From Olivibacter sitiensis DSM 17696 (lineage in GTDB: Bacteria > Bacteroidota > Bacteroidia > Sphingobacteriales > Sphingobacteriaceae): a stretch of DNA of 64,000 nt. The notes below the pieces were generated by a model. The model ran no database searches. It had not been told where the DNA came from and worked only from the letters and a program-made list of their open reading frames with translations. Location of the stretch: assembly GCF_000427965.1 (NCBI RefSeq), contig NZ_ATZA01000003.1:1-64000 (forward strand), written 5' to 3'. Position numbers and translations under genes: made by a program. Positions 44,493-46,985 of this stretch are shown in pieces (the stretch's first letter is position 1; every line of letters begins with the position of its first letter).

Positions 44493-45602
44493 TCAATAAA
44501 CTTTTACCATAAATACAAAGTCCTGAATTTTCTTTATCTGCTCCGCCCTATTCAGCTTACCCAAATTATTTCTTTTATTGAGCACGATTTGCTCGCCTTC
44601 CACGTCTGCCAGTTCCTCCAAACTCTTCAGAAGAAATTTGGTCTTTATCGCAAAAGCAGCTCCATCCGCCTGCGTCTGCTTTCCCTTAACGATACCTATT
44701 ATATTACCATGGTTATCCACCAATGGTCCGCCGCTGTTACCTGGATTCACGGGAATAGAAACCTGATAGGCAATGGTGTCTCCAGCGTAATCTGATTGAC
44801 TACTTAGATACCCTCTACCATATACCGCCTCATCCCTTGGGAAACCAATTGTAAACACATCCTCTCCTATATCCGAACTCCCCTTTTTGAAAGTGTAAGG
44901 TATTGCTGCAAGGCCCTCAAAGTTTGGATCATCTATCTGAAGAATGGCTATATCGTAGCTTTTATCCATATGAACCACTTTGGTTTTATACGATTGCCCA
45001 TCATTGCCCTGCACATAAATAGAATCTGCCCTATCCACCACATGGTAATTCGTCACCAGATAGCCATCAGAAGAAAGTGCAAAGCCAGTAGCACCATAAT
45101 GACTGGGATTTATCCCCTTGTCCTTCTCCGTACCGTCACTATTCTTCTTGTTGAATTCTTTCACCAAGGCGTTCTGGCGCCTAGCTATACTATTCATATC
45201 CCTTCTCAAGGCAGAATACTGGGACGAATTGTCCTTTACATTGGTAAAATAGCCTGTCAGCCACAAGGTCGAAAAAACGGCCAAAAGAGCTACAGAAGCC
45301 GCCACCAAGGAGTTGATCTTATATTTGTTCCAGATACGGACTACTACCGGTTTGTGCGGTTTGGCACTTAGCCTAATTTCGTTCATATCCAATTCGGCAT
45401 GGATGGCATCCATTTTCTGCTGCAAATTGACCCTATCTCCGTACAAGCCGAGATATTTGAGAAAACTTCTATGTTCTTCCAACTGAGTTTGCGCATAAGG
45501 AGTATCATTGCAATAGCGCTCAAATTCTATTTGCTCCCTTTGACTTAGCTCCCCTTTAAGGTAAGCATCGGCCCATTCCAAAAATTCCTGATCGCTTCTC
45601 AT
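44493..45602 (-). CDS. Membrane-anchored HtrA-type serine protease with anti-sigma-like cytoplasmic domain
   Basis: A 369-residue single-span protein. The N-terminal 90 residues are cytoplasmic and helical (DQEFLEWADAYLKGELSQRE, FERYCNDTPYAQTQLEEH), resembling anti-sigma factors though without the zinc HxxxCxxC motif. A membrane helix (98-118) and a coiled linker follow, then a trypsin-like domain with His187 (TNYHVV), Asp217 (YDIAIL) and Ser290 (NPGNSGGPL). No PDZ domain is present. The upstream neighbour on the same strand encodes a sigma factor (62 bases away), so the two probably form a sigma/regulator unit in which a protease is part of the regulator. The role is inferred from architecture. 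Confidence 0.8.
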   Translation of the reverse strand: MRSDQEFLEWADAYLKGELSQREQIEFERYCNDTPYAQTQLEEHRSFLKYLGLYGDRVNLQQKMDAIHAELDMNEIRLSAKPHKPVVVRIWNKYKINSLVAASVALLAVFSTLWLTGYFTNVKDNSSQYSALRRDMNSIARRQNALVKEFNKKNSDGTEKDKGINPSHYGATGFALSSDGYLVTNYHVVDRADSIYVQGNDGQSYKTKVVHMDKSYDIAILQIDDPNFEGLAAIPYTFKKGSSDIGEDVFTIGFPRDEAVYGRGYLSSQSDYAGDTIAYQVSIPVNPGNSGGPLVDNHGNIIGIVKGKQTQADGAAFAIKTKFLLKSLEELADVEGEQIVLNKRNNLGKLNRAEQIKKIQDFVFMVKVY

Positions 45603-45664
45603 CCCTGCTTATTTTCTATTTATATGGCACTGATCTGATAAGATACGACGCCCAAAAATGCAAA

Positions 45665-46231
45665 TTAATTAAAAAACAACTTCTTAAGCCGCTGCAGGCA
45701 TTTATATTTCTGCGTTTTGGCATTATCAGTGCTAGTATAACCAAACTTATCGCTGATATCCTGCATAGACATATTGTAGATATAGAAATCTTTCAATATG
45801 CTTTGGCAGGGTTCACCTAAACGCTTCATAGCAGCTTCCATCATAAAAAATTGCTTGTCACGTTCTTCCATCCATTCTATCTCATTCACCAAGGGGATAG
45901 AATCTTCAAAATCCTCTATATTGAGACTATATCTATCTTTTTTCCCCAGTCGCTTAAGCCATAAATTGCGGCAGATAGAATAAATAAATGTTTTTAGCTG
46001 GCATTTCAGATCCAGCTTCTGCTGTCCTATCCTGTCGTAAAGCGCAATAACAGCCTCCTGAAATATATCTTTGGCATCATCTTCCGATCCACTATTATGA
46101 GTCACGAAACGCAGTGCCATAGGATAAAATTGCTTATATAAAATCTTTAACGTGTCTGAATTTCCTCGTTTAATACCTTCCAACAACGATACGTCATCAG
46201 CTACGGTCTGCTGCTTTTGCTCTTTGCTCAC
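45665..46231 (-). CDS. ECF-like RNA polymerase sigma factor
   Basis: A 188-residue sigma-70-family factor of extracytoplasmic-function size. Region 2 runs about 29-95 (LYKQFYPMALRFV, DAKDIFQEAVIALYDRI) and region 4 about 130-185, with the helix-turn-helix SMQDISDKFGYTSTDNAKTQKYKCL. The start is GTG at 46231: a stop lies directly before it in frame and no earlier ATG is available. The HtrA-type protein with an anti-sigma-like N-terminus lies just downstream on the same strand. The divergent lipoprotein genes across a 276-base region could be targets. Confidence 0.87.
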   Translation of the reverse strand: MSKEQKQQTVADDVSLLEGIKRGNSDTLKILYKQFYPMALRFVTHNSGSEDDAKDIFQEAVIALYDRIGQQKLDLKCQLKTFIYSICRNLWLKRLGKKDRYSLNIEDFEDSIPLVNEIEWMEERDKQFFMMEAAMKRLGEPCQSILKDFYIYNMSMQDISDKFGYTSTDNAKTQKYKCLQRLKKLFFN

Positions 46232-46507
46232 TTATTAATACACTTAATTGATAAATGGTAACCCAAATTTATTCATTTTATCGCTATTTATAACTATGAT
46301 CCCCTCTTTACTTCATTGAGTTTGATATCGGCCATTCACCATCTAAACAAAATATATTACTGACAAGCAGCTATTTAAACTAAACAAATCCAGCAAAAGG
46401 CAAGCCCGAAAAGAAAAAAATAAAATTGTTGGGTTACCTTTATAGCTTTAGAGGTATAAAAGGTAAATGTAAAACAAGTTATTGTTTAATTAAAACTGGA
46501 GATTATA
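46232..46507. other. Divergent control region between sigma factor and lipoprotein genes
   Basis: No reading frame or RNA seen. The main feature is an imperfect dyad near 46434-46466 (separate entry). The rest is AT-rich. Confidence 0.5.
46434..46466. promoter_or_regulatory. Imperfect dyad TTACCTTTATA / TATAAAAGGTAA
   Basis: TTACCTTTATA (46434-46444) and TATAAAAGGTAA (46455-46466) are near-mirror copies about 42-74 bases before the first lipoprotein start. It could be an operator, or overlapping promoters for the divergent sigma factor. No consensus TAnnTTTG lies at this place, which leaves room for an alternative sigma factor. Confidence 0.35.
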
Positions 46508-46690
46508 ATGAAAAACGCATTCAAATTTGGATTTTTTGGCTTAGCATTGGCCATTGCAGTAGCATCTTGTGGTGGTTCTGAAAGTAAAACTGAAGAAACT
46601 GCAGACACAACTATCGAAGTAGTTCCTACACCAGATGATACTTTGGAAGTTGTTACTGACACAGTCGTTACTACCGATACAATCCAATAA
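46508..46690 (+). CDS. Small acidic lipoprotein A (tandem pair)
   Basis: 60 residues: signal peptide with lipobox VASC (Cys about 21), then a Gly-Gly-Ser spacer and a highly acidic, Thr/Val-rich tail (ADTTIEVVPTPDD, EVVTDTVVTTDT). The tail has no folded-domain look and may be a disordered linker on the membrane surface. GGAG at 46498-46501 is a good ribosome site, which is rare here. It is about 80 percent identical to the next gene by eye, so the pair arose by tandem duplication. Abundant structural lipoproteins are one possible role; none is proven. Confidence 0.75.
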   Translation: MKNAFKFGFFGLALAIAVASCGGSESKTEETADTTIEVVPTPDDTLEVVTDTVVTTDTIQ

Positions 46691-46730
46691 GAAAAAGAAC
46701 AATTTAATAAAAAAAAACAATTAATTAACA

Positions 46731-46928
46731 ATGAAAAATCTATTCAAATTTGGCTTTTTGGGCCTTGCTTTAGCACTAGCTGTAGCAGCTTGCGGTGGTT
46801 CTGAAACCAAAACCGAAGAAACTGCAGACACGACTGTAGAAGTAGTTCCTACACCAGATGACACTATTGAAGTTGTTACTGATACTGTTGTTACTACTGA
46901 TACTTTAGCTGAAGACACTGATCACTAA
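46731..46928 (+). CDS. Small acidic lipoprotein B (tandem pair)
   Basis: 65 residues with the same design as its upstream neighbour: signal, lipobox VAAC (Cys about 21), GGSETKTEE and the acidic Thr/Val repeat TDTVVTTDT, ending in a short extra LAEDTDH. The 40-base gap between the two contains no terminator, so both should be on one mRNA; a terminator follows this copy. Nearly all differences between the copies are conservative or synonymous, which suggests selection to keep both. Confidence 0.77.
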   Translation: MKNLFKFGFLGLALALAVAACGGSETKTEETADTTVEVVPTPDDTIEVVTDTVVTTDTLAEDTDH

Positions 46929-46949
46929 GCTGAAAAGTATTTTTTCAAG

Positions 46950-46985
46950 AAAAGCCATTTGCTAATAGCAAATGGCTTTTCTTTT
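46950..46985 (+). terminator. Terminator after the tandem lipoprotein genes
   Basis: AAAAGCCATTTGC (46950-46962) and GCAAATGGCTTTT (46968-46980) form a perfect 13-bp stem with loop TAATA, then CTTTTTATT. Also suitable for the convergent pyrD. Confidence 0.88.

Follow-up and report, generated by a model that had tools for sequence, protein, structure and literature searches.

Can an anti-sigma factor carry the protease that sets its sigma factor free? The question is raised by positions 44,493 to 46,928 of a 64,000-nucleotide stretch of Olivibacter sitiensis DSM 17696 DNA (contig NZ_ATZA01000003.1; this whole stretch is called the window), where a gene for an extracytoplasmic function (ECF) sigma factor is followed by one for a fusion of an anti-sigma-like domain to a serine protease, divergent from two small lipoprotein genes. 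Where anti-sigma factors are degraded by regulated proteolysis, the work is usually shared among several proteins. We propose, at what we consider about an even chance, that this locus is an autoregulated sigma switch with the small lipoproteins as its output and with a site-1-type protease built into the anti-sigma factor itself. The architecture was read from the sequence and the regulon from comparative evidence, and we infer self-cleavage, sigma binding and the signal.

The fusion protein is laid out as an N-terminal helical domain (residues 1–70), a juxtamembrane segment (71–97), a membrane span at about 98–118 by eye (the corresponding helix of the structure model covers 86–115), a stalk with a modelled helix at 126–152, a DegS/HtrA-like serine protease domain at about 164–335, modelled as a trypsin fold from about residue 170, and a conserved C-terminal tail (351–369) modelled as a helix and a strand at 352–368. 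The model of the whole chain has a mean predicted local distance difference test (pLDDT) score of 78 and a predicted template modelling (pTM) score of 0.53. Pfam Trypsin_2 matches residues 171–304 with 93.2 bits, and the catalytic triad, His187, Asp217 and Ser290, is unchanged in all 95 distinct full-length homologues. Foldseek ranked DegS lacking its PDZ domain first for the protease model (E 1e-12), and the best VIA rows, HtrA1, DegP and DegS, were tied within 1 to 2 Z units (Z 18–20 over 153–174 residues, root-mean-square deviation (rmsd) 2.1–3.5). The Pfam scan found no PDZ domain in the fusion protein, which extends only about 34 residues past the protease domain, and the NCBIfam DegS equivalog model scored 83 bits, far under its cut-off of 422.95. 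Averaged over alignment columns, the commonest residue has a share of 0.62 in the protease, 0.64 in the C-terminal tail, 0.42 in the N-terminal domain and 0.32 in the stalk. A sequence-only reading of this DNA had listed the sigma, protease and lipoprotein reading frames, all of which are present where it placed them, and had suggested that an anti-sigma-like domain and a serine protease with a complete triad may form one polypeptide, which the sequence architecture bears out. Its designation of the protease as HtrA fits the DegS/HtrA-like fold and has to be qualified by the missing PDZ match.

Conservation of the pair was followed within the family and in a wider set, which drew on 395 genomes searched across the class and on 12 full-length loci out of 80 retained from named contigs. 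The sigma gene lies directly upstream in 97 of the 98 full-length loci, or 94 of 95 after three duplicates were dropped, and the sole exception (L143) stops at a contig end; as judged from these sequences, chance is therefore ruled out for the gene arrangement. Within the family, 30 of 37 genomes (G000–G036) encode a full-length homologue, always with the sigma gene directly upstream, and the remaining seven have related protease domains only. The full-length pair extends to other families, including Chitinophaga, Hymenobacter and Chitinophagales, so that by sequence comparison the arrangement is common to many related Bacteroidota. All 13 full-length matches from a phylum sample of 148 genomes belong to the same class, the class of most non-matching genomes in that sample not being shown. 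Among protease-only loci this sigma gene was adjacent in 0 of 85, a control weaker than it looks because 68 of the 85 were drawn from a list with mainly non-Bacteroidota entries, flanks are short in some cases and one gene accounts for two rows. The sequence-only reading had named conserved synteny as a check, and protease homologues in contexts without a sigma gene as a finding that would speak against it; the sigma pairing proved conserved, as did the divergent lipoproteins (63 of 92 loci, see below), and 94 of the 95 full-length homologues have the sigma gene.

By matches above curated cut-offs, positions 45665–46231 encode an ECF sigma factor: Pfam Sigma70_r2 scored 38.8 bits (cut-off 24) and NCBIfam sigma70-ECF (TIGR02937) 73.0 bits (cut-off 42.9), the latter aligning sigma residues 28–184 to profile positions 3–163 of 165. 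This coverage and the length of 188 residues describe a short protein spanning regions 2 and 4; the Pfam scan reported no match to the region 4 model. Single domains of the sigma factor gave structural matches of middling Z, such as SigW (Z 9.4, rmsd 3.0, 92 residues).

We consider it likely that the N-terminal domain of the fusion is an anti-sigma domain, on the grounds of its position, membrane anchoring and helical pattern. The domain is modelled as helices at 4–15, 21–33 and 35–70 (block pLDDT 76–93) and precedes a single membrane span, its gene adjoins the ECF sigma gene (94 of 95 homologues), and helical pattern, anchoring and gene order match class I anti-sigma factors. Curated models support this identity only weakly: when the N-terminal domain was scanned alone in 24 members, drawn from 45 picked as diverse, zf-HC2 was found in 12 (best E 0.0039) and an NCBIfam 'anti-sigma factor' model in 10 (best E 1.1e-4), with any other model in at most three. 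A read-through chain, joining the sigma factor and the fusion of one homologous locus (L035) across the stop, reached a pLDDT of 83.4 and a pTM of 0.74, and by these two scores alone is compatible with a packed sigma/anti-sigma arrangement. In neither of the two structure models do the VIA rows reach the N-terminal domain, which is no evidence against an anti-sigma fold.

The sigma gene and the divergent lipoproteins are each preceded by the promoter-like motif GGGTTAC-N15/16-GTATTAA, oriented toward the gene in question. The window contains two strict sites (0.00 expected in shuffles), and these are the only two copies of the strict pattern in the 5.05 Mb genome. Of the 220-nt upstreams that could be placed, counted once each after five duplicates were dropped, 59 of 77 before sigma genes and 54 of 76 before lipoproteins have the strict motif, where shuffles gave 0.2 on average (maximum 2 of 50). 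A relaxed form is present in 88 of 94 sigma upstreams (0.2 in shuffles). On their other strand, 41 of the 94 segments have it, where promoters of divergent lipoproteins overlap with them.

The lipoprotein form of the motif was then searched in 41 genomes, 25 of the family and 16 others, in which a control pattern had 0 matches. It was found in all 22 family genomes with the system and in none of the three without it. Of the 27 family matches, 25 lie before a small lipoprotein, one before the sigma gene and one before a 281-aa lipoprotein-like protein (L195, G013:C80), where a sigma-type motif is seen 33 nt upstream; the 16 other genomes gave two matches (G046, G049), and among the frames listed neither has a small lipoprotein behind it. 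Four of the 25 lipoprotein-preceding matches are unlinked to sigma. Three genomes, G022, G007 and G019, show no such lipoprotein within roughly 0.9 kb beside the sigma gene, and their single genomic match, on another contig in the first two and 1.9 Mb away in the third, is each time directly before a like lipoprotein; in G010 one copy of motif and lipoprotein is linked and another unlinked. Since unlinked lipoproteins keep the motif, the motif follows the lipoprotein and not the location. With a motif in common with the sigma gene, retained even where they are unlinked from it, the lipoproteins are, on this comparative evidence, best read as regulon members of the sigma switch, and it is very likely that the neighbouring sigma factor uses this motif. 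The sequence-only reading had seen the lipoproteins as divergent and tied to the sigma system, which stands; the role it offered them, as targets or ligands, is recast by the shared motif as that of regulon members. A larger regulon was considered and rejected, as neither the strict nor the relaxed motif has copies in the genome of O. sitiensis beyond the two at this locus.

Further details of these upstream regions were observed. A second motif copy about 65–75 nt further upstream of the sigma gene at four loci (L028, L038, L124, L129) suggests tandem promoters. In the window the sigma GTG start lies only 3 nt past the GTATTAA element (46231–46264), with similar closeness in many relatives, and the sigma mRNA should therefore have no leader or almost none, unless translation truly begins further in. 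An ECF-type motif with a CGT box is described in the available part of a Flavobacterium psychrophilum study, and this box loosely fits the (C)GTATTAA element here.

The two lipoproteins of the window are 86% identical over 59 residues, and the second has no motif of its own and is therefore probably co-transcribed with the first. Signal peptide and lipobox, recognised by eye, are conserved among the lipoproteins, from which we infer their export; the mature part is short and of low complexity. In the part of PMC12871550 available, D[S/T]x is given as the Bacteroidota O-glycosylation sequon. Each window lipoprotein has four such sequons. In 42 lipoproteins together, 229 D[S/T][AILVMTSC] triplets were counted, where 500 shuffles gave 62.9 on average and 81 at most, and 241 of their 261 aspartates stand directly before Ser or Thr (95.6 in shuffles); from their sequences they are probably O-glycosylated. 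A sequon-rich small lipoprotein is divergent from the sigma gene in 63 of the 92 loci flanked by 700 nt or more, always within 0.9 kb, and in 52 of the 92 it is preceded by the relaxed motif; in controls, such a lipoprotein was found in 3 of 486 stretches of 920 nt in the window and in 1 of 154 in outer flanks. Some mature lipoproteins, including those of L007 and L028, contain runs of the seven-residue repeat VDSAAAK and not of irregular sequon strings.

The nearest curated family, PG1828_fam_lipo (NF050142), scored the window lipoproteins at 39.9 and 42.7 bits and its cut-off of 50 was not reached; it was exceeded in 7 of 198 genomes. That genuine PG1828-family lipoproteins elsewhere stand beside a like sigma gene was rejected, as six of these seven (L218–L222, L225) show neither this sigma gene nor the motif within about 1.5 kb. 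The seventh, in G017 (L224; 54.2 bits with its neighbours in frame), is a sigma locus of the present family. In Porphyromonas gingivalis the sigma factor PG1827 adjoins PG1828 by locus number only, and the consulted parts of the literature on this species do not discuss the pair.

Several results weigh against reading the locus as a sigma/anti-sigma switch with its own regulon. At the N-terminal domain, the window protein scored 13.6 bits against zf-HC2 (cut-off 22.2) and 13.1 bits against NF052375 (cut-off 100). A search of solved structures with an N-terminal profile of 24 members returned no credible relative; its top hits (protein A repeats, a fusion protein, eIF2B, nuclear receptors) were judged spurious, and the anti-sigma factor RslA (3hug_B) appeared at E 0.3 only. 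Covariation between sigma factor and N-terminal domain, computed as mutual information with average-product correction from 91 of 94 pairs (effective number 75; three shortened rows are omitted, and L143 has no sigma sequence), was null, the top value of 5.68 comparing with a mean of 5.52 in 60 clade-wise shuffles. Three loci of one other family (L135, L136, L142) have an N-terminal domain about 35 residues shorter and keep sigma, motif and lipoprotein. As for the motif, the strict pattern read backwards also has two copies in the O. sitiensis genome, and the genome-wide count alone is therefore not significant; it is the placing that is telling. Even in its relaxed form the motif is missing from six of the 94 sigma upstreams, and two other-family genomes (G047, G052) have the system and no match to the lipoprotein form. 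Finally, 29 of the 92 loci show no sequon-rich lipoprotein nearby, and 57 of the 87 lipoproteins found have a motif within 130 nt.

In the self-contained, envelope-responsive switch that we propose, the N-terminal domain of the fusion would at rest keep the ECF sigma factor bound at the inner membrane. A cue from the periplasm would activate the fusion's own DegS-like protease domain, which would cut the stalk of a neighbouring fusion copy, and a site-2 protease of the RseP type, for which the whole genome has one M50 match, would then complete the release of sigma. The free sigma factor would recognise GGGTTAC-N15/16-GTATTAA and transcribe its own sigma/anti-sigma operon together with one to a few small, probably O-glycosylated lipoproteins. 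For and against the central step, a site-1 cut made by the protease on itself or on a sister copy, we see the balance as roughly level; most simply, the cutting would take place between copies, by analogy with HtrAw, which when given substrate treats its own N-terminal domain in this way. DegS without its PDZ domain is active without its activating peptide, and another gate would therefore be needed in the fusion, for which the conserved C-terminal tail is a candidate. More tentative is the full picture, a possibility that we rate somewhat below the central step: an anti-sigma factor that acts as its own site-1 protease, with a gate other than a PDZ domain (possibly the tail), in a near-private circuit whose only other output is tiny sequon-rich glycolipoproteins and which tunes that class of envelope component homeostatically.

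Self-cleavage has to be weighed against a division of labour, unlikely in our estimate, in which the fusion acts as an anti-sigma factor, its protease domain serves quality control or sensing on other periplasmic proteins, and a different protease, for example a separate HtrA, makes the site-1 cut. The genome does contain a separate HtrA-like gene (L031, G000:C3:109132-109632, a 514-aa frame), which is the only other match of the fusion in its own genome at E up to 0.001. In addition, the protease module with a like C-terminal tail ends other proteins of 347–754 aa at 12 loci (L173–L184) that have neither the anti-sigma-like domain nor a sigma gene, most of them beginning with a signal-like stretch; the module therefore has functions of its own and is possibly a Bacteroidota protease subfamily, to which the tail would belong rather than to the switch. 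The triad, however, is kept in all 95 fusions, as expected if catalysis serves the switch, whereas a sensor could lose it, a point that is suggestive only.

An intact triad would be unneeded if the fusion regulated sigma uncut, with substrate occupancy or a shape change passed through stalk and membrane to loosen the grip on sigma. The stalk is predicted to be helical (126–152) and is poorly conserved (0.32), so that no cleavage site stands out, both of which would suit this mode of regulation. Membrane-bound class I anti-sigma factors, however, are mostly released by proteolysis, and we think regulation of this kind improbable. That the motif is the site of another regulator or of a different sigma factor, with the neighbouring sigma gene merely a target, is very improbable: two elements with a near-fixed spacer do not name the factor, but the blocks lie 15–16 nt apart at promoter distance, like an ECF promoter, and the lipoprotein form keeps company with this sigma factor throughout the family (22 of 22 genomes with it, 0 of 3 without).

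The features of the locus are collected in Table 1. Terminator-like hairpins number 3 in the region against 2.0 expected in shuffles, and the hairpin scan found no minus-strand terminator 3' of the protease gene.

Table 1. Features of the sigma/fusion locus and its divergent lipoprotein genes, in window coordinates.
Feature	Position	Strand	Evidence
Anti-sigma-like/protease fusion, 369 aa	44493..45602	-	Open reading frame, profile matches, structure model, homologue alignment
ECF sigma factor, 188 aa, GTG start	45665..46231	-	Open reading frame, Pfam and NCBIfam profiles
Promoter-like motif of sigma operon, GGGTTAC-N16-GTATTAA, ends 3 nt before GTG	46235..46264	-	Motif comparison
Promoter-like motif of lipoprotein operon, GGGTTAC-N16-GTATAAA, ends 47 nt before first lipoprotein ATG	46431..46460	+	Motif comparison
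Small lipoprotein 1, 60 aa, O-glycosylation-sequon-rich, PG1828-like below family cut-off	46508..46690	+	Open reading frame, profile, sequon count
Small lipoprotein 2, 65 aa, tandem duplicate of lipoprotein 1	46731..46928	+	Open reading frame, profile, sequon count
Terminator-like hairpin, 17 pairs, then T run, 3' of lipoprotein 2	46947..46983	+	Pattern match only

Cleavage built into the anti-sigma factor's own chain has precedents in the self-cleaving anti-sigma factors, the FecR-like FoxR and FpvR and the RsgI family, which cleave by non-enzymatic peptide-bond rearrangement; here, in contrast, a complete serine protease is attached. In Escherichia coli, DegS is the site-1 protease, RseA the membrane anti-sigma factor and sigmaE the ECF sigma factor. 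The present locus shares with that system an ECF sigma factor, a single-span protein with an anti-sigma-like N-terminus, a DegS-type fold and an M50 protease in the genome. It differs in that the anti-sigma-like domain and the protease are one polypeptide, in lacking a PDZ domain, so that sensing of outer-membrane protein tails by the known route is not possible, and in its very small apparent regulon. As proposed, it works like DegS-RseA-sigmaE in one chain, yet the fusion is not a DegS, having no PDZ domain and scoring far below the cut-off (DegS is summarised in the available part of PMC8103513).

As described in the accessible text of PMC5359297, HtrAw of Brevibacillus sp. WF146 likewise combines an N-terminal domain containing a membrane segment with a trypsin-like protease, and substrate-induced intermolecular autoprocessing removes that N-terminal domain; unlike the fusion, HtrAw has a PDZ domain, and that text gives no regulatory role for the N-terminus and no sigma factor. 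Another Bacteroidota sigma factor with an oversized anti-sigma factor is found in Phocaeicola vulgatus, in an unusual pair that is thought to respond to envelope stress and whose sigma gene is itself upregulated; its extra part, according to the portion of PMC9308784 available, is a predicted outer-membrane beta-barrel and not a protease. The lipoproteins resemble the P. gingivalis PG1828 family (NF050142) in length and layout, but the window pair stays under the cut-off, and six genomes that exceed it lie outside the system, with neither this sigma gene nor the motif within about 1.5 kb. According to PMC7406223, a class I anti-sigma domain was encoded close to only 6% of the ECF sigma factors of Bacteroidota. 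The literature searched, a partial survey from which we claim no absence from print, contained no description of a serine protease with an anti-sigma domain joined to it, or of this motif.

The comparative regulon is unusually clean, and self-cleavage is the proposed central step. The one-chain version would be simpler than any known to us and would offer a clean test of DegS-type gating without a PDZ domain. Beyond this, a promoter code and a tiny regulon can be put forward for a conserved sigma factor of the Bacteroidota, and gene control is connected with lipoproteins rich in sequons, which the O-glycosylation system of this phylum should modify.

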